A program made the translations under genes and the position numbers. Of a DNA stretch of 64,000 bases, positions 1,608 through 63,520 are shown piece by piece. The DNA is from Trypanosoma brucei gambiense DAL972. Taxonomy: Eukaryota > Euglenozoa > Kinetoplastea > Trypanosomatida > Trypanosomatidae. The notes below the pieces were generated by a model. That model saw only the letters and a list, made by a program, of their open reading frames with translations, ran no database searches and was not told the DNA's origin. The stretch lies in the NCBI RefSeq assembly GCF_000210295.1, contig NC_026740.1, positions 434,001-498,000 on the forward strand. Reading direction: 5' to 3'. Every line of letters begins with the position of its first letter. Position 1 is the first letter of the stretch.

Positions 1608-3677
1608 TCATTTCCGTGTGAATGCTGGTGCATCTCGATATTTTCTCTCTTCATGATACGCTATTATAAGCTCTTTCTGTATCTTGTTATCAAATGTTAT
1701 TTGATACTGGTCAATACCATCCCAAAATACTTGTGTTTCCTCAGTTTGTTGCTCAGCATCAGCGGTGTTGTTGTTCACACATCGTTGCCGCGTCTTAATC
1801 ACACCACCATAAATAGCATTAACATATATCATCTCCCATGCCATGTTACGAGAAAAGGTATCCCAATCGGAAAAATACCTTGCAATGTTTGTCATAAATT
1901 CCTGTAACTCTGAAACACTTGCTTCTTTCCTGTAATTATCTGTTATTTGAATAAGCACAATAGTCTTTGAGGCAACTCCCAGTTGTGGAAAACCATCCCT
2001 CATATCCGCAACCCTTCTAGAGCAATCTTCCACAAAGAAAAAACCACCCACAAAAAGCTTACTCTCCTCCAATGACCTGTAGAGCACCTTGTATTTACAG
2101 TTTCCAATTGCATTCTGTCCAGCTTCTGGTAAGAACTTTTGTTCAACAAGTTGAAACTGTTGTGGGGTCATATCTTTCAGGATGCTACGCTTGTCTTCCG
2201 TCTCTCCGAGTCTTCGGAGGTAGTTCAAATGTTTTGTGACCACACAAAAGACTCTAGGAAAGAGAAGTGAAACCAAAGCCCTTGTTTTAAGCGAGTAGGC
2301 TCCGACCTTACCGTATTCCATCATGAATTCATGGGATGACATACTTTCCGCAACATCTGCAAACAGCGTACAGAGTATCATATTCCCAATGGCAACTGAT
2401 AGAGGTCTACAGTGGTATGATTCGAGGTTTCCATATCTGCTCCTCTCCCGTACAATCTTTATTAACGATTCTGTGAAATCATTACCTTTCCATTCAAAAT
2501 ATTTTCCCATCATCATATCATAGCCATCTCGTCTATTACAACTGAGACTGCTTAGATACCCTATTACTGCCGCCTCACGACAGCCAGCTCCATTTCTGAA
2601 AACATAACGAGGCAGCGGCCCCACAAAGTCAACACGTCTCTCCACCAACCTCCACTCATCCTCTAGTTCTTCCTTAACCTTCGCACGAGCATTTTCATCG
2701 AGAGTCGTATAGTTGGGAAATAGGGACAGTTTGTTCCAAGCCACAAACGCCTTAATGTCACGTACGTCATCGCAGTTTAAAATTATCCTTGTTTGTTCCA
2801 GGTTCTTCATCCAGTACTTGTAGCGAACTCCATCTGGGGGTGCGAGGACAGTCACACCCCAAACATTTCTTGGGATCTCATAAGGCAGACTCTCCTTAGG
2901 ACTATTAATATCAAAAATAATATGCCCTCTTTTTTTTAAACGCATTTCTTCAATAACATTAGTGACGTCTTCTCTCTCGTACAATACAACCCTCCCTTCC
3001 TCATTCCCCTTCTTGTTGTATATAAGGTAAGCTTTGGAACCCGTGAAATACACAACGACATCAAGCATTCCTTCATGGAAGTGAAGTAGGGAATGAAGTA
3101 AAAATGATCCAACTCCACATGATTTTCCAATACCAGATATACCAATGACAATGTGTGTTGGTGGTGTGCTCTCTGTCTTTTGCACCCACCATGCATTTAA
3201 TTTTCGTTGTATTATATACCACACACGCATCATTTCACGACGGATGTAGACATTATTGTCCAATATCCCAATTCTCTGATATAAACTAATTAGTCGACCT
3301 TGAAATCTATCTGATGGCCAACCCATCATTGATGTAAGGACAAAGATCTCCAGGCCAGTGGGTCTCTCCTCAAGTTCCGCATCAACTTCACAATGTTCAG
3401 GAGTTATATCCACTTCTTCTTCCGTCCATATGTGTTGTGGTCTTCCAAAGAATACCTTCATACCGAGTGGCTCTTGATTATAACCTGACATCACATAACT
3501 CCACTTCGCATAATACAGAGACTCATATAACTCCTCTTCACGAGATTTCCTTTTTCCAGTTACCGATGGATTCAGCATCTGTCGTCCACCTTGTTCCTGC
3601 ACTTCACCTTGTGCACGATTAAACCGTTCGTTAAACACATTCTGAGTATTTCTCATATTGCCGTTGTTTTGAATCAT
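1608..3677 (-). CDS. RHS: Retrotransposon hot spot (RHS) protein, copy R1, intact
   Basis: A 689-residue RHS-family protein. RHS proteins are Trypanosoma-specific and often nuclear; in T. brucei, family members have been linked to RNA polymerase II transcription and mRNA export. Residues 1-40 are Asn/Gln-rich, followed by a basic GKRKSR patch at 41-46 that could be a nuclear signal. Walker A is GISGIGKS at about 179-186, a Walker B-like HIIFD at about 252-256, and the family block VGPLPRYVF at about 352-360. The C-terminal RHS region includes FFFVE (~547), WEMIYV (~614) and FWDG (~651). The start ATG is supported by an in-frame TAA eight codons upstream. The N-terminal part looks shorter than in many T. 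brucei and T. cruzi members. Segment types (defined in the findings): A1, B1, L1, R1, D1, E1, F1. Unusual residues are FTGSKAY where most copies have FTDAKAY, and AWNKL for AWKKL. Confidence 0.93.
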   Translation of the reverse strand: MIQNNGNMRNTQNVFNERFNRAQGEVQEQGGRQMLNPSVTGKRKSREEELYESLYYAKWSYVMSGYNQEPLGMKVFFGRPQHIWTEEEVDITPEHCEVDAELEERPTGLEIFVLTSMMGWPSDRFQGRLISLYQRIGILDNNVYIRREMMRVWYIIQRKLNAWWVQKTESTPPTHIVIGISGIGKSCGVGSFLLHSLLHFHEGMLDVVVYFTGSKAYLIYNKKGNEEGRVVLYEREDVTNVIEEMRLKKRGHIIFDINSPKESLPYEIPRNVWGVTVLAPPDGVRYKYWMKNLEQTRIILNCDDVRDIKAFVAWNKLSLFPNYTTLDENARAKVKEELEDEWRLVERRVDFVGPLPRYVFRNGAGCREAAVIGYLSSLSCNRRDGYDMMMGKYFEWKGNDFTESLIKIVRERSRYGNLESYHCRPLSVAIGNMILCTLFADVAESMSSHEFMMEYGKVGAYSLKTRALVSLLFPRVFCVVTKHLNYLRRLGETEDKRSILKDMTPQQFQLVEQKFLPEAGQNAIGNCKYKVLYRSLEESKLFVGGFFFVEDCSRRVADMRDGFPQLGVASKTIVLIQITDNYRKEASVSELQEFMTNIARYFSDWDTFSRNMAWEMIYVNAIYGGVIKTRQRCVNNNTADAEQQTEETQVFWDGIDQYQITFDNKIQKELIIAYHEERKYRDAPAFTRK

Positions 3678-3724
3678 TCCTATCTCAAAATAATAACTTT
3701 AAATAGGTAATATTGCGTTACTTT

Positions 3725-3798
3725 CTGAACATATATGTGTGTGTGTTTGTGTGTGTGTGTATGTTAAATCAAATAGTAAAATGAATGGAATGATGTGT
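3725..3798 (-). promoter_or_regulatory. Candidate trans-splice acceptor region of R1
   Basis: Read on the minus strand, a T/C-rich stretch (about 3798-3766) is followed by an AG-free CA-rich repeat and then by the first AG at 3725-3726, about 48 bases before the ATG. Trypanosome mRNAs receive the spliced leader at the first usable AG after a pyrimidine tract, so this is a reasonable acceptor. The same arrangement precedes every RHS copy with a complete 5' flank. The CA repeat itself is not a pyrimidine tract, so strength is uncertain. Spliced-leader reads would settle it. Confidence 0.4.
3736..3763. repeat. (TG)n microsatellite upstream of R1
   Basis: A TG-rich run with one TTTG interruption. 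The equivalent runs upstream of the other genes are at 11735-11766, 17339-17370, 22940-22971, 28529-28560, 30400-30443, 36009-36020, 41599-41610, 47179-47190, 52767-52779, 58353-58394 and 63577-63614. Four consecutive units (R8-R11) carry only about 12-13 bases, whereas the others have about 28-44. Confidence 0.95.
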
Positions 3799-4683
3799 AC
3801 ACACTATCAAGCAACATATATATACAGTTCATGAATATCATAAACTAACAGAACAAATTATAACCCCTCCTTACAGTTAAACCCGTTAACAACCCCTTGC
3901 ATATATTGAATAGTGATGTTCAATCAATTAAATATTCTGTATGAAAGCATGAGTAATAAGATTTTTAGATATGAGAGATAACAAACACGAAATCCTAAGT
4001 GAAGAATACTACTATTTCATATAATATAATATGTATGCATATAGTATAATATGTCATACTTTTTAAAATAATAAACAATAGTATTAATAATGAGATAAAC
4101 AGAATTTACAATAATAGATTATACATTGCACACGTAATAATGAGGACAACGTATGTCACAAAGGTTCTTAATTATAACATCGAAAGAACATTAACTCAAA
4201 GCATCAGCATATATTGCACATACAAACTGTTATTCATTATAACATCTTGGCTCCATTTCACAGCATAGACGACAATGTTTGAGTGTAAACCGTAACATAC
4301 AAAACCCAACACAAATATCTTCTGTACTGTCAAATATTGGGATGGTATCTCATCTCATTATTAAACACTTTCAACATTATCTTGTTGTCTCCTTGTTTGG
4401 GAACTCTCATCTGTGACACTAAGGAATATGTGAAGATACTAAGATCATTTATTTTTTAATTTCCTAGTTGCATTTGCAATTGTTCACATATTCTTTCAGT
4501 ACACGCAAAAAAATTGAAAGTTTAAGGAAAATTGAATTATGAGAATAAGGAAACAAAGGATAAATTTTCTGTGAACAATAAAATATTATATAATATCTCA
4601 AATCTTCTGCAGTGATTCACCACATGTGGAAAATATATGCAATAGTTACATAACACTGACAACACTGAATAAAGGAATATATT

Positions 4684-7211: not shown

Positions 7212-7480
7212 CTACTCATGACCTCGTTTCCGTGTGAATGCTGGTGCATCTCGATATTTTCTCTCTTCATGATACGCTATTATAAGCTCTTTCTGTATCT
7301 TGTTATCAAATGTTATTTGATACTGGTCAATACCATCCCAAAATACTTGTGTTTCCTCAGTTTGTTGCTCAGCATCAGCGGTGTTGTTGTTCACACATCG
7401 TTGCCGCGTCTTAATCACACCACCATAAATAGCATTAACATATATCATCTCCCATGCCATGTTACAAGAAAAGGTATCCC
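7212..7480 (-). CDS. RHS: RHS protein, copy R2, 3' end only (gap-truncated)
   Basis: Only about the last 88 codons remain before the 100-N gap at 7481-7580. They match the conserved RHS C-terminus with WEMIYV and FWDG. The stop differs from R1: the TGA after TRK is CGA here, so the protein ends four residues later (RGHE). One Arg-to-Cys change precedes NMAWEM close to the gap and could be a low-quality base call. Sequence resumes after the gap in the middle of a spacer, so most of this gene and its 5' flank are missing from the assembly rather than shown to be absent from the genome. Confidence 0.85.
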
Positions 7481-8667: not shown

Positions 8668-9618
8668 ATGGTTTTGAGACACACCACATATCAGTTCTTC
8701 AACATTACATATGTGTAAATCCATATTTACAAAAGGTAAAGCTTTTGAATATCTGCATAATTATTTGAAGTATTATTATCTAATGAAATGAACAGTAGAT
8801 GTCACTGAAATGCAAATAGTAATAATCCTCTGAAATGCATAAATACTGTTTCACACAATACTCTAAAGTAATGCAGCGCTATGCCATGAATACTTCCACA
8901 GAAGATACAACAACTAATGTGCGATAGTTAGTCATAATGATGCCTTCCATGTGATGAACTCTGCAATACAAATCATACGTTGAACAGAAACTAAAACATT
9001 AAATACTAAATATAAATACATGGGGAAGTGATGTAAAATATAAGAGGGTTTATGTACGTCAAGAAAGTTTCATTAGAATACAATAATAGTTTTGAATTTT
9101 ATTAAACAACTTAAAGCTTAACCACATGTGTGGAAACAACAATCACTTCACTATAGCATTTGTAGATTAGTGATTGTTACTGAAATAAATGAAAAAAAAC
9201 AAATGAAGTAAATACGGCAAGCACTGCATCCCATATTCTGTATTCATCACTGTGTGCTGACGCGCTTGAGTAGCTTTGCCCATTGACAGAAAAAAAAATA
9301 ATAAATAAATGAAATCTCTTCTTGCATCTTGCACAAGTGTATTTCAACAGAACAAAGACGTAAAAGAAATTTTATGCTTAATATATTTACTCATTTATTT
9401 GAAGGAAAGGTACAATAACCAAAAAACTATAAAGGTGCATGTGAGTTATACTTCATTGTCAGATAAAGTTAACTTCACAACCCTCCTGAAACACAAAAGG
9501 AAAATTAAAAGAATTGCAATGAAGAAACAGAAGAAATACAATATGTTTTTTCCAACCTCTAACATGTTATATGTAAAAGTGACGAAATGGTCTTCACAAT
9601 AGGATGCTACTCATGACC
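7581..9618. other. Spacer upstream of R2 and downstream of R3 (partial)
   Basis: The right-hand 2 kb of a spacer, beginning just after the gap. It contains the inverted-repeat island (about 7740-7910), the 67-codon minus-strand ORF (7956-8159), an (AT)n run (about 8625-8642) and a (GA)n run (about 8643-8668). A GCGCTTG variant near 9262 and an ACC variant near 9418 are shared with the spacer ending at 50649. No gene is seen. Confidence 0.8.
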
Positions 9619-11678
9619 TCATTTCCGTGTGAATGCTGGTGCATCTCGATATTTTCTCTCTTCATGATACGCTATTATAAGCTCTTTCTGTATCTTGTTA
9701 TCAAATGTTATTTGATACTGGTCAATACCATCCCAAAATACTTGTGTTTCCTCAGTTTGTTGCTCAGCATCAGCGGTGTTGTTGTTCACACATCGTTGCC
9801 GCGTCTTAATCACACCACCATAAATAGCATTAACATATATCATCTCCCATGCCATGTTACGAGAAAAGGTATCCCAATCGGAAAAATACCTTGCAATGTT
9901 TGTCATAAATTCCTGTAACTCTGAAACACTTGCTTCTTTCCTGTAATTATCTGTTATTTGAATAAGCACAATAGTCTTTGAGGCAACTCCCAGTTGTGGA
10001 AAACCATCCCGCATATCCGCAACCCTTCTAGAGCAATCTTCCACAAAGAAAAAGCCATCCACAAAAAGCTTACTCTCCTCCAATGACCTGTAGAGCACTT
10101 TGTATTTACAGTTTCCAATTGCATTCTGTCCAGCTTCTGGCAAGAACTTTTGTTCAACAAGTTGAAACTGTTGTGGGGTCATATCTTTCAGGATGCTACG
10201 CTTGTCTTCCGTCTCTCCGAGTCTTCGGAGGTAGTTCAAATGTTTTGTGACCACACAAAAGACTCTAGGAAAGAGAAGTGAAACCAAAGCCCTTGTTTTA
10301 AGCGAGTAGGCTCCGACCTTACCGTATTCCATCATGAATTCATGGGATGACATACTTTCCGCAACATCTGCAAACAGCGTACAGAGTATCATATTCCCAA
10401 TGGCAACTGATAGAGGTCTACAGTGGTATGATTCGAGGTTTCCATATCTGCTCCTCTCCCGTACAATCTTTATTAACGATTCTGTGAAATGATTACCTTT
10501 CCATTCAAAATATTTTCCCATCATCATATCATAGCCATCTCGTCTATTACAACTGAGACTGCTTAGATACCCTATTACCGCCGCCTCACGACAGCAAGCT
10601 CCATTACTGAAAACATAACGAGGCAGCGGTCCCACAAAGTCAACACGTCTCTCCACCAACCTCCACTCATCCTCTAGTTCTTCCTTAACCTTCGCACGAG
10701 CATTTTCATCGAGAGTCGTATAGTTGGGAAATAGGGACAGTTTCTTCCAGGCCACAAACGCCTTAATGTCACGTACGTCATCGCAGTTTAAAATTATCCT
10801 TGTTTGTTCCAGGTTCTTCATCCAGTACTTGTAGCGAACTCCATCTGGGGGTGCGAGGACAGTCACACCCCAAACATTTCTTGGGTCTCATAAGGCAGAG
10901 TTTCCTTAGGACTATTAATATCAAAAATAATATGCCCTCTTTTTTTCAAACGCATTTCTTCAATAACATTAGTGACGTCTTTTCTCTTGTACAATACAAC
11001 CCTCCCTTCCTCATTCCCCTTCTTGTTGTATATAAGGTAAGCTTTGGCATCCGTGAAATACACAACGACATCAAGCATTCCTTCATGGAAGTGAAGTAGG
11101 GAATGAAGTAAAAATGATCCAACTCCACATGATTTTCCAGTCCCTGGAATACCAATGATAATGTGTGTTGGTGGTGTGCTCTCTGTCTTTTCCACCCACC
11201 ATGCATTTAATTTTTGTTGTATTATATACCACACACGCATCATTTCACGACGGACGTAAATATGACCTCCATTTCCCCCATATAAACTAATGAGAGAACA
11301 TTGAAATCCGCATGATGGGTTATATATCTTTGATGTAAGGACAAAGATCTCCAGGCCAGTGGGTCTCTCCTCAAGTTCCGCATCAACTTCACAATGTTCA
11401 GGAGTTATATCCACTTCTTCTTCCGTCCATATGTGTTGTGGTCTTCCAAAGAATACCTTCATACCGAGTGGCTCTTGATTATAACCTGACATCACATAAC
11501 TCCACTTCGCATAATACAGAGACTCATATAACTCCTCTTCACGAGATTTCCTTTTTCCAGTTACCGATGGATTCTGCATCTGTCGTCCACCTTGTTCCTG
11601 CACTTCACCTTGTGCACGATTAAACCGTTCGTTAAACACATTCTGAGTATTTCTCATATTGCCGTTGTTTTGAATCAT
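9619..11678 (-). pseudogene. RHS: RHS copy R3, frameshifted at codon ~268
   Basis: Aligns with R1 along its full length but is split by one missing base at about 10885. The 5' half (10863-11678) then runs into a stop after ETQEMFGV. The 3' half (9619-10866) continues in the other frame to the normal C-terminus. Before the break it carries Walker A GIPGTGKS and segment types A2, B2, L1; after it R1, D1 (variant NGACCREAAV), E1, F1. The break sits on the border between segments L and R, which both contain CCCAA one base out of register. It may be a recombination scar, a plain one-base deletion or a sequencing error. As written it would give a protein of about 271 residues with Walker A but without the RHS C-terminus. 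Confidence 0.88.
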
Positions 11679-14221
11679 TCCTATCTCAAAATAATAACTT
11701 TAAATAGGTAATATTGTGTTACTTTCTGCACATATGTGTGTGTTTGTGTGTGTGTGTGTGTTTGTGTTAAATCAAATAGTAAAATGAAGGGAATGATGTG
11801 TACACACTATCAAGCAACACATATATACAGTTCATGAATATCATAAACTAACAGAACAAATTATAACCTCTCCTTACAGTTAAACCCCTTAACAACCCCT
11901 TGCATATATTGAATAGTGATGTTCAATCAATTAAATATTCTGTATGAAAGCATGAGTAATAAGATTTTTAGATATGAGAGATAACAAACACGAAATCCTA
12001 AGTGAAGAATACTACTATTTCATATAATATAATATGTATGCATATAGTATAATATGTCATACTTTTTGAAATAATAAACAATAGTATTAATAATGAGATA
12101 AACAGAATTTACAATAATAGATTATACATTGCACACGTAATAATGAGGACAACGTATGTCACAAAGGTTCTTAATTATAACATCGAAAGAACATTAACTC
12201 AAAGCATCAGCAAACATGCACATACAAACTGTTATTCATTATAACATCTTGGCTCCATTTCACAGCATAGACGACAATGTTTGAGTGTAAACCGTAACAT
12301 ACAAAACCTAACACAAATATCTTCTGTACTGTTAAATATTGGGATGGTATCTCATCTCATTATTAAACACTTTCAACATTATCTTGTTGTCTCCTTGTTT
12401 GGGAACTCTCATCTTTGACACTAAGGAATATGTGAAGATACTAAGATCATTTATTTTTTTATTTCCTAGTTGCATTTGCAATTGTTCACATATTCTTTCA
12501 GTACACGCAAAAAAATTGAAAGTTTAAGGAAAATTGAATTATGAGAATAAGGAAACAAAGGATAAATTTTCTGTGAACAATAAAATATTATATAATATCT
12601 CAAATCTTCTGCAGTGATTCACCACATGTGGAAAATATATGCAATAGTTACATAACACTGACAACACTGAATAAAGGAATATATTCAATATAGTCAATAT
12701 AGTCAATATATTTAATGCAAATATTACATGGAATATAAGAAGTGTAAGGAATCAAAGGAATATAAAAATAAAATGTAATGGAGAATGATGGAAACTGAAG
12801 ATACATCTATGTGAGCATAGCGTTGTGTGAGTAGAAATCATTTGCATATTTTATCTTAATCTTTCCCTATATTGTACTCACTCACTCGTAAAATTTAATC
12901 ATGGAAATAAAGTTTAGGGAATAGTAAAGTTGTTCTTCCACTCGCATCAAGACACAAATACATGCTTTCTGTCATTGGAAATCATGTGTCTTTATTAAAT
13001 TGTAGTATCCAATAATGAAAAAGAAGTACTCTATTACTATATCACTCATCATTTCCTACATCCCTAAATATATCGCATATTGTCACTATACATATTCTTT
13101 TTATTTTTCATATACCATACAACAATCATATATTATTTACTTCCTTTCTTTAAACTGATGTTGTAATGTTCCTTTTGGAAGATACAAATAAATAATTGAA
13201 CAAATATTAACACAAGAGTAATAATAGAAGAAAAGAATTACCTTAAGGAAACTACATGGAACTTCCATTATATAAGATACTACACTTCATATAAGTGGTA
13301 AAAACGTAACAGTGGTTGTATCTTTTATTTGTCCTCAGTGTATCGGCAATCCTTCAGTAGACACTGCTTTGCAACTGATTTCTTTTATGGATTAAGTTAG
13401 TCAGCAGTGTTGAGACAGGTTCCCCCGCATGAGGAGTGAAGGGACAAAACAATATTCCTACCTTCTAACCTATTGAACAACAATGTCTCAAACAATATCA
13501 TTTGTCCCTATTTATTTCTGCAGATGCAAATGCTATTGATGGGTGAGATACATCTAAACAGCAACGGATATAACTATACTCATACAGTGTTTCTTTGATT
13601 TCTTCTCGTCACCACAGTTCTGTTGGGTTACAAATATATACACAGCACTCCACTTTGTGGCTATAAGTCTCTTTAATATTTGAATGAAATCCTGCCTATC
13701 GCTACTTCAATATTTCACACTCTGTGAGGGACACTGATATTTGCTTCTTTCGTCCATTTCATATTTTGATAGTTATGTAAATATCTTATGTGCAATCCAT
13801 CTTCTTTCCAAAATAAATAAAAAGAAAGATAAAAGCATAAGCAATTATCGACATAAAAACTGGAATGAGTCTCTCGGTTACACGTCGCACGCTTCTAACA
13901 TATATACACGCTGCATGTAACCTATTTTTGTTGTTTCATGCATGTGTCAGTATGATAAAATGAAAATAGTCTCATGTTTCTCCTTGTGCTTTTGTATTGC
14001 ATAAACTACTGGACTCGTCATCTCTTCCACCTATTCATCACACAGGAGTTGTTCACTTTCTTTACATATAGCATATAGTAAAAATACAAAATATCAAATT
14101 ATTAAATTAATACTTCACTATAAGCAATAAAGCTTACTTGATTTTGTTTATTTCATTTATATCTGAGTTGAATTACATATGTTAATGAAATTATTCCACT
14201 ACTCAAAGATACAAACACTTT

Positions 14222-14270: not shown

Positions 14271-15221
14271 ATGGTTTTGAGACACACCACATATCAGTTC
14301 TTCAACATTACATATGTGTAAATCCATATTTACAAAAGGTACAGCTTTTGAATATCTGCATAATTATTTGAAGTATTATTATCTAATGAAATGAACAGTA
14401 GATGTCACTGAAATGCAAATAGTAATAATCCTCTGAAAGGCATAAATACTGTTTCACACAATACTCTAAAGTAATGCAGCGCTGTGCCATGAATACTTCC
14501 ACAGAAGATACAACAACTAATGTGCGATAGTTAGTCATAATGATGCCTTCCATGTGATGAACTCTGCAATACAAATCATACGTTGAACAGAAACTAAAAC
14601 ATTAAATACTAAATATAAATACATGGGGAAGTGATGTAAACTATAAGAGGGGTTATGTACGTCAAGAAAGTTTCATTAGAATACAATAATAGTTTTGAAT
14701 TTTATTAAACAACTTAAAGCTTAACCACATGTGTGGAAACAACAATCACTTCACTATAGCATTTGTAGATTAGTGATTGTTACTGAAATAAATGAAAAAA
14801 AACAAATGAAGTAAATACGGCAAGAACTGCATCCCATATTCTGTATTCATCACTGTGTGCTGACGCGTTTGAGTAGCTTTGCCCATTGACAGAAAAAAAA
14901 ATAATAAATAAATGAAATCTCTTCTTGCATCTTGTACAAGTGTATTTCAACAAAACAAAGACGTAAAAGAAATTTTATGCTTAATATATTTACTCATTTA
15001 TTTGAAGGAAAGGTACAATAGCCAAAAAACTATAAAGGTGCATGTGAGTTATACTTCATTGTCAGATAAAGTTAACTTCACAACCCTCCTGAAACACAAA
15101 AGGAAAATTAAAAGAATTGCAATGAAGAAACAGAAGAAATACAATATGTTTTTTCCAACCTCTAACATGTTATATGTAAAAGTGACGAAATGGTCTTCAC
15201 AATAGGATGCTACTCATGACC
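11679..15221. other. Complete spacer between R3 and R4
   Basis: It has the standard spacer layout: (TG)n at 11735-11766, 9-base repeats near 12686-12712, inverted-repeat island about 13330-13510, (AT)n at about 14226-14251 and (GA)n at about 14252-14270. The 67-codon ORF of other spacers is broken here by a TGA near 13708. A 62-codon plus-strand ORF at 12339-12527 is AT-rich chance reading. No gene is seen. Confidence 0.8.
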
Positions 15222-19868: not shown

Positions 19869-20819
19869 ATGGTTTTGAGACACACCACATATCAGTTCTT
19901 CAACATTACATATGTGTAAATCCATATTTACAAAAGGTACAGCTTTTGAATATCTGCATAATTATTTGAAGTATTATTATCTAATGAAATGAACAGTAGA
20001 TGTCACTGAAATGCAAATAGTAATAATCCTCTGAAAGGCATAAATACTGTTTCACACAATACTCTAAAGTAATGCAGCGCTATGCCATGAATACTTCCAC
20101 AGAAGATACAACAACTAATGTGCGATAGTTAGTCATAATGATGCCTTCCATGTGATGAACTCTGCAATACAAATCATACGTTGAACAGAAACTAAAACAT
20201 TAAATACTAAATATAAATACATGGGGAAGTGATGTAAAATATAAGAGGGTTTATGTACGTCAAGAAAGTTTCATTAGAATACAATAATAGTTTTGAATTT
20301 TATTAAACAACTTAAAGCTTAACCACATGTGTGGAAACAACAATCACTTCACTATAGCATTTGTAGATTAGTGATTGTTACTGAAATAAATGAAAAAAAA
20401 ACAAATGAAGTAAATATGGCAAGCACTGCATCCCATATTCTGTATTCATCACTGTGTGCTGACGCGTTTGAGTAGCTTTGCCCATTGACAGAAAAAAAAT
20501 AATAAATAAATGAAATCTCTTCTTGCATCTTGTACAAGTGTATTTCAACAAAACAAAGACGTAAAAGAAATTTTATGCTTAATATATTTACTCATTTATT
20601 TGAAGGAAAGGTACAATAGCCAAAAAACTATAAAGGTGCATGTGAGTTATACTTCATTGTCAGATAAAGTTAACTTCACAACCCTCCTGAAACACAAAAG
20701 GAAAATTAAAAGAATTACAATGAAGAAACAGAAGAAATACAATATGTTTTTTCCAACCTCTAACATGTTATATGTAAAAGTGACGAAATGGTCTTCACAA
20801 TAGGATGCTACTCATGACC
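17283..20819. other. Complete spacer between R4 and R5
   Basis: It has the standard layout: (TG)n 17339-17370, 9-base repeats near 18290-18316, inverted-repeat island from about 18940 to 19110, 67-codon minus-strand ORF 19160-19363, (AT)n about 19832-19853 and a short (GA)n about 19854-19868. No gene is seen. Confidence 0.8.
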
Positions 20820-30344: not shown

Positions 30345-30403
30345 TCCTATCTCAAAATAATAACTTTAAATAGGTAATATTGTGTTACTTTCTGCACATA
30401 TGT

Positions 30404-44069: not shown

Positions 44070-44109
<40 letters not shown>

Positions 44110-49699: not shown

Positions 49700-50649
49700 T
49701 GGTTTTGAGACACACCACATATCAGTTCTTCAACATTACATATGTGTAAATCCATATTTACAAAAGGTAAAGCTTTTGAATATCTGCATAATTATTTGAA
49801 GTATTATTATCTAATGAAATGAACAGTAGATGTCACTGAAATGCAAATAGTAATAATCCTCTGAAAGGCATAAATACTGTTTCACACAATACTCTAAAGT
49901 AATGCAGCGCTGTGCCATGAATACTTCCACAGAAGATACAACAACTAATGTGCGATAGTTAGTCATAATGATGCCTTCCATGTGATGAACTCTGCAATAC
50001 AAATCATACGTTGAACAGAAACTAAAACATTAAATACTAAATATAAATACATGGGGAAGTGATGTAAAATATAAGAGGGTTTATGTACGTCAAGAAAGTT
50101 TCATTAGAATACAATAATAGTTTTGAATTTTATTAAACAACTTAAAGCTTAACCACATGTGTGGAAACAACAATCACTTCACTATAGCATTTGTAGATTA
50201 GTGATTGTTACTGAAATAAATGAAAAAAAACAAATGAAGTAAATACGGCAAGCACTGCATCCCATATTCTGTATTCATCACTGTGTGCTGACGCGCTTGA
50301 GTAGCTTTGCCCATTGACAGAAAAAAAAATAATAAATAAATGAAATCTCTTCTTGCATCTTGCACAAGTGTATTTCAACAGAACAAAGACGTAAAAGAAA
50401 TTTTATGCTTAATATATTTACTCATTTATTTGAAGGAAAGGTACAATAACCAAAAAACTATAAAGGTGCATGTGAGTTATACTTCATTGTCAGATAAAGT
50501 TAACTTCACAACCCTCCTGAAACACAAAAGGAAAATTAAAAGAATTGCAATGAAGAAACAGAAGAAATACAATATGTTTTTTCCAACCTCTAACATGTTA
50601 TATGTAAAAGTGACGAAATGGTCTTCACAATAGGATGCTACTCATGACC
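47123..50649. other. Complete spacer between R10 and R11
   Basis: It has the standard layout with a short (TG)n (47179-47190), inverted-repeat island about 48755-48930, (AT)n about 49651-49678 and (GA)n about 49679-49698. The 67-codon ORF is interrupted by a TGA near 49095. It shares private variants (GCGCTTG near 50294, AATAACC near 50446) with the spacer downstream of R3. No gene is seen. Confidence 0.8.
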
Positions 50650-52710
50650 TCATTTCCGTGTGAATGCTGGTGCATCTCGATATTTTCTCTCTTCATGATA
50701 CGCTATTATAAGCTCTTTCTGTATCTTGTTATCAAATGTTATTTGATACTGGTCAATACCATCCCAAAATACTTGTGTTTCCTCAGTTTGTTGCTCAGCA
50801 TCAGCGGTGTTGTTGTTCACACATCGTTGCCGCGTCTTAATCACACCACCATAAATAGCATTAACATATATCATCTCCCATGCCATGTTACGAGAAAAGG
50901 TATCCCAATCGGAAAAATACCTTGCAATGTTTGTCATAAATTCCTGTAACTCTGAAACACTTGCTTCTTTCCTGTAATTATCTGTTATTTGAATAAGCAC
51001 AATAGTCTTTGAGGCAACTCCCAGTTGTGGAAAACCATCCCTCATATCCGCAACCCTTCTAGAGCAATCTTCCACAAAGAAAAAGCCATCCACAAAAAGC
51101 TTACTCTCTTCCAATGACCTGTAGAGCACTTTGTATTTACAGTTTCCAATTGCATTCTGTCCAGCTTCTGGCAAGAACTTTTGTTCAAAAATTTGAAACT
51201 GTTGTGGGGTCATATCTTTCAGGATGCTACGCTTGTCTTCCGTCTCTCCGAGTCTTCGGAGGTAGTTCAAATGTTTTGTGACCACACAAAAGACTCTAGG
51301 AAAGAGAAGTGAAACCAAAGCCCTTGTTTTAAGCGAGTAGGCTCCGACCTTACCGTATTCCATCATGAATTCATGGGATGACATACTTTCCGCAACATCT
51401 GCAAACAGCGTACAGAGTATCATATTCCCAATGGCAACTGATAGAGGTCTACAGTGGTATGATTCGAGGTTTCCATATCTGCTCCTCTCCCGTACAATCT
51501 TTATTAACGATTCTGTGAAATGATTACCTTTCCATTCAAAATATTTTCCCATCATCATATCATAGCCATCTCGTCTATTACAACTGAGACTGCTTAGATA
51601 CCTTATTACCGCCGCCTCACGACAGCAAGCTCCATTACTGAAAACATAACGAGGCAGCGGCCCCACAAAGTCAACACGTCTCTCCACCAACCTCCACTCA
51701 TCCTCTAGTTCTTCCTTAACCTTCAAACGAGCATTTTCATCGAGAGTCGTATAGTTGGGAAATAGGGACAGTTTCTTCCAAGCCACAAACGCCTTAATGT
51801 CACGTACGTCATCGCAGTTTAAAATTATCCTTGTTTGTTCCAGGTTCTTCATCCAGTACTTGTAGCGAACTCCATCTGGGGGTGCGAGGACAGTCACACC
51901 CCAAACATTTCTTGGGATCTCATAAGGCAGAGTCTCCTTAGGACTATTAATATCAAAAATAATATGCCCTCTTTTTTTTAAACGCATTTCTTCAATAACA
52001 TTAGTGACGTCTTCTCTCTCGTACAATACAACCCTCCCTTCCTCATTCCCCTTCTTGTTGTATATAAGGTAAGCGTCCGCATCCGTGAAATACACAACGA
52101 CATCAAGCATTCCTTCATGGAAGTGAAGTAGGGAATGAAGTAAAAATGATCCAACTCCACATGATTTTCCAATACCAGATATACCAATGACAATGTGTGT
52201 TGGTGGTGTGCTCTCTGTCTTTTGCACCCACCATGCATTTAATTTTTGTTGTATTATATACCACACACGCATCATTTCACGACGGACGTAAATATGACCT
52301 CCATTTCCCCCATATAAACTAATGAGAGAACATTGAAATCCGCATGATGGGTTACATATCTTTGATGTAAGGACAAAGATCTCCAGGCCAGTGGGTCTCT
52401 CCTCAAGTTCCGCATCAACTTCACAATGTTCAGGAGTTATATCCACTTCTTCTTCCGTCCATATGTGTTGTGGTCTTCCAAAGAATACCTTCATACCGAG
52501 TGGCTCTTGATTATAACCTGACATCACATAACTCCACTTCGCATAATACAGAGACTCATATAACTCCTCTTCACGAGATTTCCTTTTTCCAGTTACCGAT
52601 GGATTCTGCATCTGTCGTCCACCTTGTTCCTGCACTTCACCTTGTGCACGATTAAACCGTTCGTTAAACACATTCTGAGTATTTCTCATATTGCCGTTGT
52701 TTTGAATCAT
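50650..52710 (-). CDS. RHS: RHS protein, copy R11, intact
   Basis: 686 residues, ending at TRK. Segment types are A2 (KICNPSCGFQ then GGNGGHIYVRREMM), B1, L1, R1, D1 (NGACCREAAVIRY), E1, F3. FTDADAYLIY replaces FTDAKAYLIY, a change shared with R12 that lies about 25 residues after Walker A. YEREDV at about 233-238 is shared with R1 and R12, where other copies have YKRKDV. The frame is unbroken. Confidence 0.93.
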   Translation of the reverse strand: MIQNNGNMRNTQNVFNERFNRAQGEVQEQGGRQMQNPSVTGKRKSREEELYESLYYAKWSYVMSGYNQEPLGMKVFFGRPQHIWTEEEVDITPEHCEVDAELEERPTGLEIFVLTSKICNPSCGFQCSLISLYGGNGGHIYVRREMMRVWYIIQQKLNAWWVQKTESTPPTHIVIGISGIGKSCGVGSFLLHSLLHFHEGMLDVVVYFTDADAYLIYNKKGNEEGRVVLYEREDVTNVIEEMRLKKRGHIIFDINSPKETLPYEIPRNVWGVTVLAPPDGVRYKYWMKNLEQTRIILNCDDVRDIKAFVAWKKLSLFPNYTTLDENARLKVKEELEDEWRLVERRVDFVGPLPRYVFSNGACCREAAVIRYLSSLSCNRRDGYDMMMGKYFEWKGNHFTESLIKIVRERSRYGNLESYHCRPLSVAIGNMILCTLFADVAESMSSHEFMMEYGKVGAYSLKTRALVSLLFPRVFCVVTKHLNYLRRLGETEDKRSILKDMTPQQFQIFEQKFLPEAGQNAIGNCKYKVLYRSLEESKLFVDGFFFVEDCSRRVADMRDGFPQLGVASKTIVLIQITDNYRKEASVSELQEFMTNIARYFSDWDTFSRNMAWEMIYVNAIYGGVIKTRQRCVNNNTADAEQQTEETQVFWDGIDQYQITFDNKIQKELIIAYHEERKYRDAPAFTRK

Positions 52711-55228
52711 TCCTATCTCAAAATAATAACTTTAAATAGGTAATATTGTGTTACTTTCTGCACATATGTGTGTGTGTGTTAAATCAAATAGTAAAATGAA
52801 GGGAATGATGTGTACACACTATCAAGCAACACATATATACAGTTCATGAATATCATAAACTAACAGAACAAATTATAACCCCTCCTTACAGTTAAACCCC
52901 TTCACAACCCCTTGCATATATTGAATAGTGATGTTCAATCAATTAAATATTCTGTATGAAAGCATGAGTAATAAGATTTTTAGATATGAGAGATAACAAA
53001 CACGAAACCATAAGTGAAGAATACTACTATTTCATATAATATAATATGTATGCATATAGTATAATATGTCATACTTTTTGAAATAATAAACAATAGTATT
53101 AATAATGAGATAAACAGAATTTACAATAATAGATTATACATTGCACACGTAATAATGAGGACAACGTATGTCACAAAGGTTCTTAATTATAACATCGAAA
53201 GAACATTAACTCAAAGCATCAGCATATATGCACATACAAACTGTTATTCATTATAACATCTTGGCTCCATCTCACAGCATAGACGACAATGTTTGAGTGT
53301 AAACCGTAACATACAAAACCCAACACAAATATCTTCTGTACTGTTAAATATTGGGATGGTATCTCATCTCATTATTAAACACTTTCAACATTATCTTGTT
53401 GTCTCCTTGTTTGGGAACTCTCATCTTTGACACTAAGGAATATGTGAAGATACTAAGATCATTTATTTTTTTATTTCCTAGTTGCATTTGCAATTGTTCA
53501 CATATTCTTTCAGTACACGCAAAAAAATTGAAAGTTTAAGGAAAATTGAATTATGAGAATAAGGAAACAAAGGATAAATTTTCTGTGAACAATAAAATAT
53601 TATATAATATTTTAAATCTTCTGCAGTGATTCACCACATGTGGAAAATATATGCAATAGTTACATAACACTGACAACACTGAATAAAGGAATATATTCAA
53701 TATACTCAATATATTTAATGCAAATATTACATGGAATATAAGAAGTGTAAGGAATCAAAGGAATATAAAAAATAAAATGTAATGGAGAATGATGGAAACT
53801 TAAGATACATCTATGTGAGCATAGCGTTGTGTGAGTAGAAATCATGTGCATATTTTATCTTAATTTTTCCCTATATTGTACTCACTCACTCGTAAAATTT
53901 AATCATGGAAATAAAGTTTAGGGAATAGTAAAGTTGTTCTTCCACTCGCGTCAAGACACAAATACATGCTTTCTGTCATTGGAAATCATGTGTCTTTATT
54001 AAATTGTAGTATCCAATAATGAAAAAGAAGTACTCTATTACTATATCACTCATCATTTCCTACATCCCTAAATATATCGCATATTGTCACTATACATATT
54101 CTTTTTCTTTTTCATATACCATACAACAATCATATATTATTTACTTCCTTTCTTTAAACTGATGTTGTAATGTTCCTTTTGGAAGATACAAATAAATAAT
54201 TGAACAAATATTAACACAAGAGTAATAATAGAAGAAAAGAATTACCTTAAGGAAACTACATGGAACTTCCATTATATAAGATACTACACTTCATATAAGT
54301 GGTAAAAACGTAACAGTGGTTGTATCTTTTATTTGTCCTCAGTGTATCGGCAATCCTTCAGTAGACACTGCTTTGCAACTGATTTCTTTTATGGATTAAG
54401 TTAGTCAGCAGTGTTGAGACAGGTTCCCCCGCATGAGGAGTGAAGGGACAAAACAATATTCCTACCTTCTAACCTATTGAACAAGAATGTCTCAAACAAT
54501 ATCATTTGTCCCTATTTATTTCTGCAGATGCAAATGCTATTGATGGGTGAGATACATCTAAACAGCAACGGATATAACTATACTCATACAGTGTTTCTTT
54601 GATTTCTTCTCGTCACCACAGTTCTGTTGGGTTACAAATATATACACAGCACTCCACTTTGTGGCTATAAGTCTCTTTAATATTTGAATGAAATCCTGCC
54701 TATCGCTACTGCAATATTTCACACTCTGTGAGGGACACTGATATTTGCTTCTTTCGTCCATTTCATATTTTGATAGTTATGTAAATATCTTATGTGCAAT
54801 CCATCTCCTTTCCAAAATAAATAAAAAGAAAGATAAAAGCATAAGCAATTATCGACATAAAAACTGGAATGAGTCTCTCGGTTACACGTCGCACGCTTCT
54901 AACATATAGACATGCTGCATGTAACCTATTTTTGTTGTTTCATTCATGTGTCAGTATGATAAAATGAAAATAGTCTCATGTTTCTCCTTGTGCTTTTGTA
55001 TTGCATAAACTACTGGACTCGTCATCTCTTCCACCTATTCATCACACAGGAGTTATTCACTTGCTTTACATATAGCATATAGTAAAAATACAAAATATCA
55101 AATTATTAAATTAATACTTCACTATAAGCAATAAAGCTTACTTGATTTTGTTTATTTCATTTATAGCTGAGTTGAATTACATATGTTAATTGAAATTATT
55201 CCACTACTCAAAGATACAAGCACTTTAT

Positions 55229-56221: not shown

Positions 56222-58297
56222 CTACTCATGACCTCGTTTCCGTGTGAATGCTGGTGCATCTCGATATTTTCTCTCTTCATGATACGCTATTATAAGCTCT
56301 TTCTGTATCTTGTTATCAAATGTTATTTGATACTGGTCAATACCATCCCAAAATACTTGTGTTTCCTCAGTTTGTTGCTCAGCATCAGCGGTGTTGTTGT
56401 TCACACATCGTTGCCGCGTCTTAATCACACCACCATAAATAGCATTAACATATATCATCTCCCATGCCATGTTACGAGAAAAGGTATCCCAATCGGAAAA
56501 ATACCTTGCAATGTTTGTCATAAATTCCTGTAACTCTGAAACACTTGCTTCTTTCCTGTAATTATCTGTTATTTGAATAAGCACAATAGTCTTTGAGGCA
56601 ACTCCCAGTTGTGGAAAACCATCCCTCATATCCGCAACCCTTCTAGAGCAATCTTCCACAAAGAAAAAGCCATCCACAAAAAGCTTGCTCTCCTCCAATG
56701 ACCTGTAGAGCACCTTGTATTTACAGTTTCCAATTGCATTCTGTCCAGTTTTTGGTAAGAACTTTTGTTCAAAAATTTGAAACTGTTGTGGGGTCATATC
56801 TTTCAGGATGCTACGCTTGTCTTCCGTCTCTCCGAGTCTTCGGAGGTAGTTCAAATGTTTTGTGACCACACAAAAGACTCTAGGAAAGAGAAGTGAAACC
56901 AAAGCCCTTGTTTCAAGCGAGTAGGCTCCGACCTTACCGTATACGCTTTCACTATGTTTCTCAACCATCAGTGTTGCAACAGTTGAAAACAGCGTACAGA
57001 GTATCATATTCCCAATGGCAACTGATAGAGGTCTACAGTGGTATGATTCGAGGTCGTCATATCTGCCCCCCTCCCGTACAATCTTCACTAAACTGTGAAC
57101 CACTTTTTCACTTTTCCACGTAAAATATTTTTCCAGAATCGTTTCATACTCTTCTTTCTTCTCATTTTCTAGGCTTCTTAGGTAATCACTGATATCCTGC
57201 AGCCGGTTGGTGTAACTTTGCTCGCTGAAAACATAACGAGGCAGCGGCCCCACAACGTCAACACGTCTCTCCACTAACCTCCACTCATCCTCTAGTTCTT
57301 CCTTAACCTTCGCACGAGCATTTTCATCGAGAGTCGTATAGTTGGGAAATAGGGACAGTTTCTTCCAAGCCACAAACGCCTTAATGTCACGTACGTCATC
57401 GCAGTTTAAAATTATCCTTGTTTGTTCCAGGTTCTTCATCCAGTACTTGTAGCGAACTCCATCTGGGGGTGCGAGGACAGTCACACCCCAAACATTTCTT
57501 GGGATCTCATAAGGCAGAGTCTCCTTAGGACTATTAATATCAAAAATAATATGCCCTCTTTTTTTTAAACGCATTTCTTCAATAACATTAGTGACGTCTT
57601 CTCTCTCGTACAATACAACCCTCCCTTCCTCATTCCCCTTCTTGTTGTATATAAGGTAAGCGTCCGCATCCGTGAAATACACAACGACATCAAGCATTCC
57701 TTCATGGAAGTGAAGTAGGGAATGAAGTAAAAATGATCCAACTCCACATGATTTTCCAATACCAGATATACCAATGACAATGTGTGTTGGTGGTGTGCTC
57801 TCTGTCTTTTGCACCCACCATGCATTTAATTTTCGTTGTATTATATACCACACACGCATCATTTCACGACGGACGTAAATATGACCTTCATTTCCCCCAT
57901 ATAAACTAATGAGAGAACATTGAAATCCGCATGATGGGTTACATATCTTTGATGTAAGGACAAAGATCTCCAGGCCAGTGGGTCTCTCCTCAAGTTCCGC
58001 ATCAACTTCACAATGTTCAGGAGTTATATCCACTTCTTCTTCCGTCCATATGTGTTGTGGTCTTCCAAAGAATACCTTCATACCGAGTGGCTCTTGATTA
58101 TAACCTGACATCACATAACTCCACTTCGCATAATACAGAGACTCATATAACTCCTCTTCACGAGATTTCCTTTTTCCAGTTACCGATGGATTCTGCATCT
58201 GTCGTCCACCTTGTTCCTGCACTTCACCTTGTGCACGATTAAACCGTTCGTTAAACACATTCTGAGTATTTCTCATATTGCCGTTGTTTTGAATCAT
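56222..58297 (-). CDS. RHS: RHS protein, copy R12, intact, clear chimaera
   Basis: 691 residues with the RGHE end. The 5' half (A2 with GGNEGHIY, B1, FTDADAY, L1, R1) is almost the same as in R11. From about codon 360 it switches to D2 (EQSYTNRLQD), E2 and F2, as in R5, R8 and R10. The switch follows the invariant VGPLPRYVF block, which would be a suitable stretch for homologous exchange. The frame is unbroken and all motifs are present. Confidence 0.93.
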   Translation of the reverse strand: MIQNNGNMRNTQNVFNERFNRAQGEVQEQGGRQMQNPSVTGKRKSREEELYESLYYAKWSYVMSGYNQEPLGMKVFFGRPQHIWTEEEVDITPEHCEVDAELEERPTGLEIFVLTSKICNPSCGFQCSLISLYGGNEGHIYVRREMMRVWYIIQRKLNAWWVQKTESTPPTHIVIGISGIGKSCGVGSFLLHSLLHFHEGMLDVVVYFTDADAYLIYNKKGNEEGRVVLYEREDVTNVIEEMRLKKRGHIIFDINSPKETLPYEIPRNVWGVTVLAPPDGVRYKYWMKNLEQTRIILNCDDVRDIKAFVAWKKLSLFPNYTTLDENARAKVKEELEDEWRLVERRVDVVGPLPRYVFSEQSYTNRLQDISDYLRSLENEKKEEYETILEKYFTWKSEKVVHSLVKIVREGGRYDDLESYHCRPLSVAIGNMILCTLFSTVATLMVEKHSESVYGKVGAYSLETRALVSLLFPRVFCVVTKHLNYLRRLGETEDKRSILKDMTPQQFQIFEQKFLPKTGQNAIGNCKYKVLYRSLEESKLFVDGFFFVEDCSRRVADMRDGFPQLGVASKTIVLIQITDNYRKEASVSELQEFMTNIARYFSDWDTFSRNMAWEMIYVNAIYGGVIKTRQRCVNNNTADAEQQTEETQVFWDGIDQYQITFDNKIQKELIIAYHEERKYRDAPAFTRKRGHE

Positions 58298-58356
58298 TCC
58301 TATCTCAAAATAATAACTTTAAATAGGTAATATTGTGTTACTTTCTGCACATATGT

Positions 58357-60853: not shown

Positions 60854-60886
<33 letters not shown>

Positions 60887-61836
60887 ATGGTTTTGAGACA
60901 CACCACATATCAGTTCTTCAACATTACATATGTGTAAATCCATATTTACAAAAGGTACAGCTTTTGAATATCTGCATAATTATTTGAAGTATTATTATCT
61001 AATGAAATGAACAGTAGATGTCACTAAAATGCAAATAGTAATAATCCTCTGAAAGGCATAAATACTGTTTCATACAATACTCTAAAGTAATGCAGCGCTA
61101 TGCCATGAATACTTCCACAGAATATACAACAACTAATGTGCGATAGTTAGTCATAATGATGCCTTCCATGTGATGAACTCTGCAATACAAATCATACGTT
61201 GAACAGAAACTAAAACATTAAATACTAAATATAAATGCATGGGGGAGTGATGTAAACTATAAGAGGGTTTATGTACGTCAAGAAAGTTTCATTAGAATAC
61301 AATAATAGTTTTGAATTTCATTAGACAACTTAAAGCTTAACCACATGTGTGGAAACAACAATCACTTCACTATAGCATTTGTAGATTAGTGATTGTTACT
61401 GAAATAAATGAAAAAAAACAAATGAAGTAAATACGGCAAGCACTGCATCCCATATTCTGTATTCATCACTGTGTGCTGACGCGTTTGAGTAGCTTTGCCC
61501 ATTGACAGAAAAAAAAATAATAAATAAATGAAATCTCTTCTTGCATCTTGCACAAGTGTATTTCAACAAAACAAAGACGTAAAAGAAATTTTATGCTTAA
61601 TATATTTACTCATTTATTTGAAGGAAAGGTACAATGGCCAAAAAACTATAAAGGTGCATGTGAGTTATACTTCATTGTCAGATAAAGTTAACTTCACAAC
61701 CCTCCTGAAACACAAAAGGAAATTAAAAGAATTACAATGAAGAAACAGAAGGAATACAATATGTTTTTTCCAACCTCTAACATGTTATATGTAAAAGTGA
61801 CGAAATGGTCTTCACAATAGGATGCTACTCATGACC
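58298..61836. other. Complete spacer between R12 and R13
   Basis: It has the standard layout with a long (TG)n (58353-58394), inverted-repeat island about 59960-60135, 67-codon ORF 60182-60385, (AT)n about 60853-60870 and (GA)n about 60871-60886. The 97-codon plus-strand ORF of other spacers has a one-base deletion here (near 61722). No gene is seen. Confidence 0.8.
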
Positions 61837-62590
61837 TCATTTCCGTGTGAATGCTGGTGCATCTCGATATTTTCTCTCTTCATGATACGCTATTATAAGC
61901 TCTTTCTGTATCTTTTTATCAAATGTTATTTGATACTGGTCAATACCATCCCAAAATACTTGTGTTTCCTCAGTTTGTTGCTCAGCATCAGCGGTGTTGT
62001 TGTTCACACATCGTTGCCGCGTCTTAATCACACCACCATAAATAGCATTAACATATATCATCTCCCATGCCATGTTACGAGAAAAGGTATCCCAATCGGA
62101 AAAATACCTTGCAATGTTTGTCATAAATTCCTGTAACTCTGAAACACTTGCTTCTTTCCTGTAATTATCTGTTATTTGAATAAGCACAATAGTCTTTGAG
62201 GCAACTCCCAGTTGTGGAAAACCATCCCGCATATCCGCAACCCTTCTAGAGCAATCTTCCACAAAGAAAAAGCCATCCACAAAAAGCTTACTCTCCTCCA
62301 ATGACCTGTAGAGCACCTTGTATTTACAGTTTCCAATTGCATTCTGTCCAGTTTTTGGTAAGAACTTTTGTTCAAAAATTTGAAACTGTTGTGGGGTCAT
62401 ATCTTTCAGGATGCTACGCTTGTCTTCCGTCTCTCCGAGTCTTCGGAGGTAGTTCAAATGTTTTGTGACCACACAAAAGACTCTAGGAAAGAGAAGTGAA
62501 ACCAAAGCCCTTGTTTCAAGCGAGTAGGCTCCGACCTTACCGTATACGATTTCACTATGTTTCTCAACCATCAGTGTTGCAACAGTTGAA
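61837..62590 (-). pseudogene. RHS: RHS copy R13, 3' part downstream of retroposon
   Basis: Codons from about 440 to the TRK stop, beginning with E2 (STVATLMVEKHSEIVYGKVG) directly after the retroposon poly(A). Segment F2. The reading frame happens to run back into the retroposon tail, so an ORF starting MAPPVGG and fusing retroposon 3' sequence to the RHS C-terminus is open to 62652. That extension is a chance fusion, not a native start. One residue near the end differs from other copies (FDKKIQ for FDNKIQ). Confidence 0.9.
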
Positions 62591-62768
62591 TTTTTTTTTT
62601 TTGGAATTTTCTTCGTGCCTTCGTGAGAGTTTCCCCCCACTGGCGGGGCCATCAGCCATCACCGTAGAGCCCTGAGATGCTATCGATCTGGCGACTGTGG
62701 CAGAGTCTCCCTTTTTTATTCATCCTAACACTCCCTCTATAATTTTTTGTTGTAGCTCCACAGTGAAA
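62591..62768 (-). mobile_element. 3' end of an ingi-like non-LTR retroposon inserted in R13
   Basis: About 178 bases unlike any other unit, with GC-richer stretches. On the minus strand it reads as the last codons of an ORF (TVELQQKIIEGVLG, stop at 62720-62722), a 3' untranslated stretch with GGCCCCGCCAGTGGGGGG, then GGCACGAAG and a 12-A tail abutting RHS codon ~440. A poly(A)-tailed insertion within an RHS gene is the defining habit of ingi/RIME elements in Trypanosoma, and the tail sequence looks ingi-like to me from memory. The 5' part of the element, and any target-site duplication on that side, is lost in the gap. It could be a full ingi or a shorter derivative. Confidence 0.75.
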
Positions 62769-62868
62769 NNNNNNNNNNNNNNNNNNNNNNNNNNNNNNNN
62801 NNNNNNNNNNNNNNNNNNNNNNNNNNNNNNNNNNNNNNNNNNNNNNNNNNNNNNNNNNNNNNNNNNNN
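62769..62868. other. Assembly gap (100 N)
   Basis: Exactly 100 N between the retroposon 3' end and RHS codon ~218 of R13. It hides the 5' part of the retroposon and about 220 RHS codons. Confidence 0.98.
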
Positions 62869-63520
62869 TGTATATAAGGTAAGCTTTGGCATCCGTGAAA
62901 TACACAACGACATCAAGCATTCCTTCATGGAAGTGAAGTAGGGAATGAAGTAAAAATGATCCAACTCCACATGATTTTCCAGTCCCTGGAATACCAATGA
63001 TAATGTGTGTTGGTGGTGTGCTCTCTGTCTTTTCCACCCACCATGCATTTAATTTTCGTTGTATTATATACCACACACGCATCATTTCACGACGGACGTA
63101 AATATGACCTCCATTTCCCCCATATAAACTAATGAGAGAACATTGAAATCCGCATGATGGGTTACATATCTTTGATGTAAGGACAAAGATCTCCAGGCCA
63201 GTGGGTCTCTCCTCAAGTTCCGCATCAACTTCACAATGTTCAGGAGTTATATCCACTTCTTCTTCCGTCCATATGTGTTGTGGTCTTCCAAAGAATACCT
63301 TCATACCGAGTGGCTCTTGATTATAACCTGACATCACATAACTCCACTTCGCATAATACAGAGACTCATATAACTCCTCTTCACGAGATTTCCTTTTTCC
63401 AGTTACCGATGGATTCTGCATCTGTCGTCCACCTTGTTCCTGCACTTCACCTTGTGCACGATTAAACCGTTCGTTAAACACATTCTGAGTATTTCCCATA
63501 TTACCGTTGTTTTGAATCAT
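62869..63520 (-). pseudogene. RHS: RHS copy R13, 5' part upstream of gap and retroposon
   Basis: Codons 1 to about 218, from MIQNNGNMGN to the YLIY just after Walker A (GIPGTGKS). Segment types A2 and B2. The frame is open up to the gap. Because the retroposon lies between this part and 61837-62590, the gene is disrupted as assembled. It is not certain that the two parts belong to one locus, since the gap may join different array units. Confidence 0.85.

Follow-up and report, generated by a model that had tools for sequence, protein, structure and literature searches.

The closest described system to the locus analysed here is array 55 of the African trypanosome tandem gene arrays, which Jackson 2007 (PMC1855330) gives as RHS7 (Tb927.7.2030, Ds 0.0658, Dn 0.0647) with coding and untranslated region networks that disagree; that paper counts 21 arrays with conversion events, of which array 55 may be one. 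In Table 2 of Jackson 2010 (PMC2854126) array 55 has an observed pairwise homoplasy index (PHI) of 0.185 against a mean of 0.570 (p<0.001), 12 breakpoints by likelihood ratio test and a minimum of 3 by GARD, whose run timed out, with 10 annotated copies in Trypanosoma brucei brucei and 20 in T. b. gambiense, under the heading of subspecies-specific sequence mosaics. The stretch of DNA analysed here (the window, 64,000 nucleotides, chromosome 7 (C7) positions 434001-498000 of T. b. gambiense DAL972) falls inside an RHS tandem array of the same subfamily, chromosome and genome. Recombination in the RHS7 array, by PHI and breakpoint tests, is already published for this genome, so the finding in that form is not new. 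The text of these two papers gives no cassette boundaries, version list, age or frequency, which their figures or supplements may hold, and among the T. brucei titles and abstract openings listed by open-access literature searches aimed at this array, none announces a cassette-level description. Added here are the cassette anatomy of the array, the age and even frequency of the cassette versions, and a link to the reported salivary-gland-restricted RHS7 transcripts. We consider it about 80% probable that the RHS7 mosaic arises from short-tract recombination between loci, a figure that applies to the recombination part only.

Recombination and gene conversion have also made mosaics of the RHS genes of Trypanosoma cruzi (53 events in 139 sequences, PMC7563717), but about 30% of that family is reported as subtelomeric and a gene can contain as many as three inserted fragments, whereas RHS7 is one internal array with fixed cassette positions. 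ISG65, BARP and Tb927.2.5290 are tandem mosaic arrays in the same genome as RHS7 (PMC2854126, Table 2). ISG and BARP are surface proteins, whereas RHS7 has a P-loop domain. We know of no surface role for RHS7. The Crinkler-RHS scheme (Zhang 2016, as described in PMC5289972) groups RHS with CRN proteins, in which a P-loop NTPase and a restriction-endonuclease-like domain are often combined; for RHS7 the comparison covers the RHS Pfam domains.

All three RHS proteins tested match both Pfam RHS_N (98-118 bits) and RHSP (181-209 bits) above the curated cut-offs, as members of the RHS family do, and these are the only Pfam domains in three RHS7 proteins, no dedicated search having been made for Crinkler-RHS header or nuclease domains. 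A protein search returned P0003, a protein named RHS of T. b. gambiense DAL972, and two TREU927 proteins (P0005 and P0006) at 84-85% identity. The locus is an internal chromosome 7 tandem array homologous to Tb927.7.2030, which identifies it as RHS7, array 55; the name and locus come from PMC1855330, and the tie to Tb927.7.2030 is through chromosome, family and array, not accession. One copy was blasted over C7:424001-588000 (the genome examined being 22.1 Mb in 11 contigs), giving 27 whole or partial RHS copies at C7:429872-575705, all on the minus strand and mostly spaced by ~5.6 kb. Twenty-two are full length, u25 is cut off at a length of 1,950 bp, and u07, u13, u14 and u18 are gapped or short. 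Array order and copy number are unreliable because there are 8 N runs in C7:424001-588000, 3 of these in the window. The 23 N-free copies were aligned (four of the 27 were dropped) and are the sample throughout unless stated; 13 have an intact open reading frame (ORF), 9 have stops or frameshifts and u25 is truncated by a gap, and no two share one sequence across the aligned gene.

Measured per 30 bp, diversity stays at 0-0.09 along the greater part of the gene but rises to 0.11-0.39 in four blocks with sharp edges, near codons 120-150, 260-310, 370-420 and 450-460. These are the four cassettes A, L+R, D and E, named after segments A, B, L, R, D, E and F of the original prediction, which was made from the DNA letters of the window. 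We clustered the segments at the DNA level at 88% identity and typed gap-bearing copies by short motifs; motif typing skipped D in u04 and L in u22, and both were typed by clustering. A has three versions and one hybrid (u22), and B, L, R, D and E have two each; F, which consists of a few scattered substitutions, is not split at 88% identity. Nucleotide identity between versions is 54-61% for the three versions of A, 52% for R, 58% for D, 53% for E and 82% for L and B; at A, R, D and E the versions are genuine alternatives, and at L and B they differ less. The framework, in contrast, is only ~1.5% diverged among the RHS7 copies, and the 20 spacers compared (those of 26 that are N-free and 3.0-4.2 kb long) are ~1% diverged. 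In the reference copy u08 the segments lie at the following window positions, converted from alignment columns:

35533..35607, minus strand: cassette A (columns 366-450), within the C-terminal half of the RHS_N match, before Walker A
35413..35442, minus strand: segment B (columns 540-570), Walker A start, GIPGTGKS type
35161..35202, minus strand: segment L, TDGPDE (columns 780-822), at and after the HIIFD strand
35058..35160, minus strand: cassette R, QYLGWG version (columns 822-925)
34708..34884, minus strand: cassette D, SYTNRLQD version (columns 1098-1275)
34588..34647, minus strand: cassette E, ATLMVEKH version (columns 1335-1395)

The 23 copies carry 15 distinct A-B-L-R-D-E combinations, with version counts that are near even (A 10:10, L 13:10, R 12:11, D 13:10 and E 12:11, of 23). 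The combinations in the window are as follows, with the copy names of the original prediction in brackets:

1596..3698, minus strand: RHS7 copy u02 (R1); A-DRFQG, B1, L-INSPKE, R1, D1, E1; ORF intact
7212..7480, minus strand: C-terminal RHS fragment of 269 bp beside the gap at 7481-7580; probably (R2)
9607..11699, minus strand: RHS7 copy u03 (R3); A-CGFQ, B2, L-INSPKE, R1, D1, E1; frame broken
15210..17303, minus strand: RHS7 copy u04 (R4); A-SATFQ, B1, L-TDGPDE, R1, D1, E1; in-frame stop
20808..22904, minus strand: RHS7 copy u05 (R5); A-SATFQ, B2, L-TDGPDE, R2, D2, E2; intact
26401..28493, minus strand: RHS7 copy u06 (R6); A-CGFQ, B2, L-INSPKE, R2, D1, E1; frame broken
28742..30365, minus strand: RHS7 copy u07 (R7), 3' part lost at the gap at 28642-28741; A-DRFQG, B1, L-INSPKE, R1, D1 subtype RELEVI, E1
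33877..35973, minus strand: RHS7 copy u08 (R8), reference copy; A-SATFQ, B2, L-TDGPDE, R2, D2, E2; intact
39466..41562, minus strand: RHS7 copy u09 (R9); A-SATFQ, B1, L-TDGPDE, R1, D2, E1; in-frame stop
41563..45046, no strand: example of the ~3.5 kb inter-copy spacer, one of the 20 compared
45047..47143, minus strand: RHS7 copy u10 (R10); A-SATFQ, B1, L-TDGPDE, R2, D2, E2; intact
50638..52731, minus strand: RHS7 copy u11 (R11); A-CGFQ, B1, L-INSPKE, R1, D1, E1; intact
56222..58318, minus strand: RHS7 copy u12 (R12); A-CGFQ, B1, L-INSPKE, R1, D2, E2; intact
61825..63541, minus strand: RHS7 copy u13, split by the gap at 62769-62868; A-CGFQ, B2 ... E2

The original prediction had tabulated eleven of these copies by seven segments, and 76 of its 77 entries hold as written; the remaining one is D of R7 (u07), which is a diverged D1 subtype with RELEVI, not REAAVI. 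Its copies R1 and R7, which it took to share one combination, therefore differ in D. We note that at a 100-N gap (window 28493-28741) u06 and u07 adjoin and lack the 3.5-kb spacer that is usual between copies, probably a collapsed or misjoined unit.

Recombination tests on the aligned array copies, as the original prediction had suggested, give a strong signal. Among 242 biallelic informative sites four gametes are present in 68% of 29,161 pairs, PHI (within 100 bp) is 0.13, where shuffling the order gives 0.68 (P 0.0005, 2000 permutations), and the Hudson-Kaplan minimum, Rm, is 29, that is, at least 29 recombination events. Mean r2 is 0.84 at <10 bp, 0.58 at 50-100 bp, 0.30 at 100-200 bp and 0.11 at 800-1500 bp, a linkage decay scale of ~100-200 bp. 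The signal holds in intact ORFs alone (n=13, PHI 0.05 vs 0.54), in the copies not beside an assembly gap (n=14, PHI 0.07 vs 0.62, with 10 combinations in the 14), at the 54 framework sites alone (significant PHI, 0.43 vs 0.60) and at cassette sites alone. L and R switch partners with almost no spacer between them (L-TDGPDE with R1 in 3 of 23 copies and L-INSPKE with R2 in 1 of 23), and the hybrid u22 changes version within cassette A. An in-frame TGA at codon 91 is common to u04, u09 and u23, each with its own cassette combination, and a TAG at codon 127 is common to u16, u18 and u19, whose cassettes also differ; inactivating changes are thus shuffled too. Copies that lie close together in the array show no significant excess of similarity over those far apart (Mantel P 0.42 for cassettes and 0.12 for framework). 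The r2 between A and L, across B, is 0.54, compared with 0.04 for A-B and 0.07 for B-L, but we give this linkage no weight as co-selection, because it comes from only 20-23 copies and the homologous B zone is easily converted. In its significant recombination among copies and its short-range linkage the array resembles a gene-conversion mosaic; recombination among RHS7 copies is established, here and earlier in print, and gene conversion is its likeliest mechanism.

Comparison with other isolates, also suggested at the outset, showed that the cassette versions recur in TREU927 and equiperdum proteins. The TREU927 protein P0005 has A-DRFQG, R1 and a RELEVI-type D1, and P0006 has A-CGFQ, R1 and D1; equiperdum P0004 has A-SATFQ, L-TDGPDE, R2, D2 and E1, a combination absent from the 23 DAL972 copies (all three proteins are cluster representatives only).

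We propose that short-tract interlocus recombination, most likely gene conversion with occasional unequal crossing-over, keeps the framework and the 3.5-kb spacers homogeneous, and that the same recombination moves the cassettes (A; L+R; D; E), all four of them short, old and highly diverged, between copies. Small framework variants are moved likewise, and many copies are therefore different combinations on one scaffold; the exchange is presumably non-reciprocal. Cassette diversity may then be kept because a varied ATPase domain brings a benefit (through balancing or frequency-dependent selection), beyond the conversion resistance of diverged stretches, and the use may lie in the tsetse salivary-gland stage.

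The ages of the versions and their frequencies bear on selection for diversity. Synonymous divergence (dS) between versions is 0.38 for A, 1.58 for R, 0.62 for D and 0.54 for E, only 0.08 for L, and 0.02 for the framework (17 copies, with five frameshifted copies and u25 dropped). The ratio of nonsynonymous to synonymous divergence (dN/dS) between versions is 1.51 for A, 3.02 for L, 0.46 for R, 0.95 for D, 1.46 for E and 0.24 for B; it is 1.02 for A, L, R, D and E pooled and 0.53 for the framework. Whole-gene dS (0.068) and dN (0.063) agree with the Ds of 0.0658 and Dn of 0.0647 of PMC1855330. Diversity per site is 0.22-0.26 in the cassettes, 0.015 in the framework and 0.010 in the spacers. 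Even frequency and age, as seen within one genome, and versions that recur in three proteins of two further subspecies would fit a balanced polymorphism. Old, even-frequency versions beside a homogenised framework look like balanced variation, but a conversion barrier in diverged stretches could do part of the work; selection for diversity at the RHS7 cassettes is plausible. Several points weigh on the other side. Crossing-over and conversion cannot be told apart in a single assembly, so the recurrent segmental gene conversion originally predicted stands as recurrent short-tract recombination. The assembly is a capillary shotgun with gaps in the array, and alleles may be among the "copies". 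Tajima's D, which counts in favour of the proposal by being higher in the cassettes (A +2.59, LR +3.37, D +3.11, E +3.24) than in the framework (+0.24) and spacers (-0.04), is off-label and descriptive here, as the sites of one cassette travel as a block and a set of paralogues differs from a sample of a population. Positive selection is unsupported, since version dN/dS is ~1 overall with only 2-3 versions per cassette. Nine of the 23 copies are broken and one is incomplete, and the broken copies hold the same shuffled cassettes.

A neutral origin of the diversity is a serious possibility that we place somewhat short of even odds. The cassettes would be fast-evolving RHS stretches whose diverged versions resist piecemeal conversion, so that homogenisation leaves islands that hitch-hike between copies with selection unneeded. 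Cassette dN/dS near 1 and the 9 of 23 broken copies are as expected of this, and across seven full-length non-RHS7 RHS proteins the pooled cassettes are less conserved than the framework (Mann-Whitney P 5e-9), with mean commonest-residue frequencies of 0.77 (A), 0.60 (L), 0.69 (D) and 0.62 (E) against 0.82-0.85. R, however, is as conserved (0.82) as the framework in those seven proteins, and other family-variable stretches (about codons 320-360 and 560-580) are nearly uniform in RHS7 and are not cassettes. The C-terminal third of RHS7 has ~45% amino acid identity to other RHS proteins, much as the cassette versions have to one another (29-61%), yet it is 96-100% identical within the compared RHS7 copies; this argues against a pure divergence barrier between founders of different subfamilies, which should leave that third dimorphic. 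Drift should moreover lose versions, since whole cassettes exchange, and the versions are instead near even and common to subspecies.

It is rather unlikely that ectopic conversion recently brought in one version of each cassette from a different RHS subfamily at some other site in the genome. Dispersed RHS matches are present on contigs 2, 3, 5, 6, 8, 9 and 11, and five of eight dispersed stretches (L019-L023) are 76-85% identical to RHS7 at the DNA level in a stretch of 200-270 bp that lies between cassettes A and L, which makes ectopic pairing possible. Cassette queries against the eight stretches (L019-L026, contig 2 match excluded) nevertheless gave only two DNA matches, of 31 and 33 bp; R and D queries reached 26-48% protein identity there, and A and E, as very short queries, had no match. 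Measured against other RHS proteins, the two R versions are at much the same distance (best 0.53 and 0.50). No close candidate for a recent ectopic donor was thus found for any cassette in these eight stretches (L001 lying inside L025), although donors may be missing because the assembly placed 22.1 of 32.6 Mb of contigs (PMC2854126).

An assembly artefact, with chimaeric consensus copies made by merging capillary reads from two alleles and from two or three uniform types of gene, is a very unlikely source of the mosaic: the array stretch does have 8 N runs, and u06 and u07 abut without a spacer at one of them, but the mosaic persists in the 14 copies not beside gaps, TREU927 and equiperdum proteins carry the same versions (equiperdum in a new combination), and the L/R, D/E and A/B switches occur within ~0-100 bp, distances that fit inside one capillary read. 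The genome paper (PMC2854126) states that repeat-unit number may be arbitrary and that variation among duplicates is accurately assessable.

The Walker A motif begins in segment B (GIPGTGKS type in u08), and the HIIFD strand at segment L looks Walker B-like by eye. Variable segments are found on both sides of the P-loop motif as well as at it, and in this respect the array agrees with the original prediction of diversity around the ATPase core; protein diversity may be what the exchange serves. Two structure predictions have low confidence (mean predicted local distance difference test, pLDDT, 41.9 and 53.8, with ten-residue means of 31-43 for cassette A in the second), because three protein searches (20, 21 and 8 rows) gave only 25 distinct relatives, and we therefore claim the placement of cassettes only as an order along the P-loop core, not in three dimensions. 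A sequence search of solved structures gave zero matches at E<=1. RHS2, RHS4 and RHS6 have been linked to RNA polymerase II transcription (PMC6597758). RHS7 transcripts are reported to be restricted to the salivary gland and to fall outside the metacyclic transcriptome (PMC8483307). The same report describes a mixed gland population, with HAP2-positive cells scattered among epimastigotes, so these transcripts do not place RHS7 in gametes. RHS7 mRNA rises after REG9.1 depletion, according to a figure legend (PMC5380359), so expression may not be strictly salivary. RHS is absent from the main text of the single-cell salivary-gland papers that were searched by term. The mosaic arrays BARP, Tb927.2.5290 and Tb927.7.360 are also upregulated in the salivary gland (PMC2854126 Table 2, PMC8483307 Table 1), and mosaicism and salivary expression may therefore go together beyond RHS7.

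A more speculative reading, which we regard as quite improbable, casts RHS7 as a combinatorial repertoire for recognition. It would be an intracellular AAA+/STAND-like ATPase with four interchangeable sensing segments, whose old versions balancing selection would keep and conversion would reshuffle, and it would act in the tsetse salivary gland, the site of trypanosome gamete formation and mating, for self/non-self recognition, gamete compatibility or the sensing of foreign or mobile nucleic acid. We infer its mating or self-recognition form ourselves. The 9 broken copies of 23 would fit such a repertoire, because its decay would be expected in T. b. gambiense, reported to be strictly asexual (PMC4739771). 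Were selection to maintain the versions, RHS7 would exemplify combinatorial diversity in a protein of ATPase type and not in a surface antigen; even if they are neutral, the array is a clean natural record of the scale of recombination tracts and of the diverged islands that conversion leaves. Sharply bounded old versions and the reported salivary-gland activity make the purpose of RHS7 a testable question.

Outside the RHS7 genes, Rfam gave zero matches at the gathering score within the window, and a plus-strand ORF of 204 codons (window 7188-7802), without a Pfam match, overlaps the RHS fragment and the adjoining gap. We note finally that C-termini of two kinds are present in the array, ..TRK and ..TRKRGHE, with the stop at alignment codon 698 or 702 (for example, 20808-22904 vs 33877-35973).

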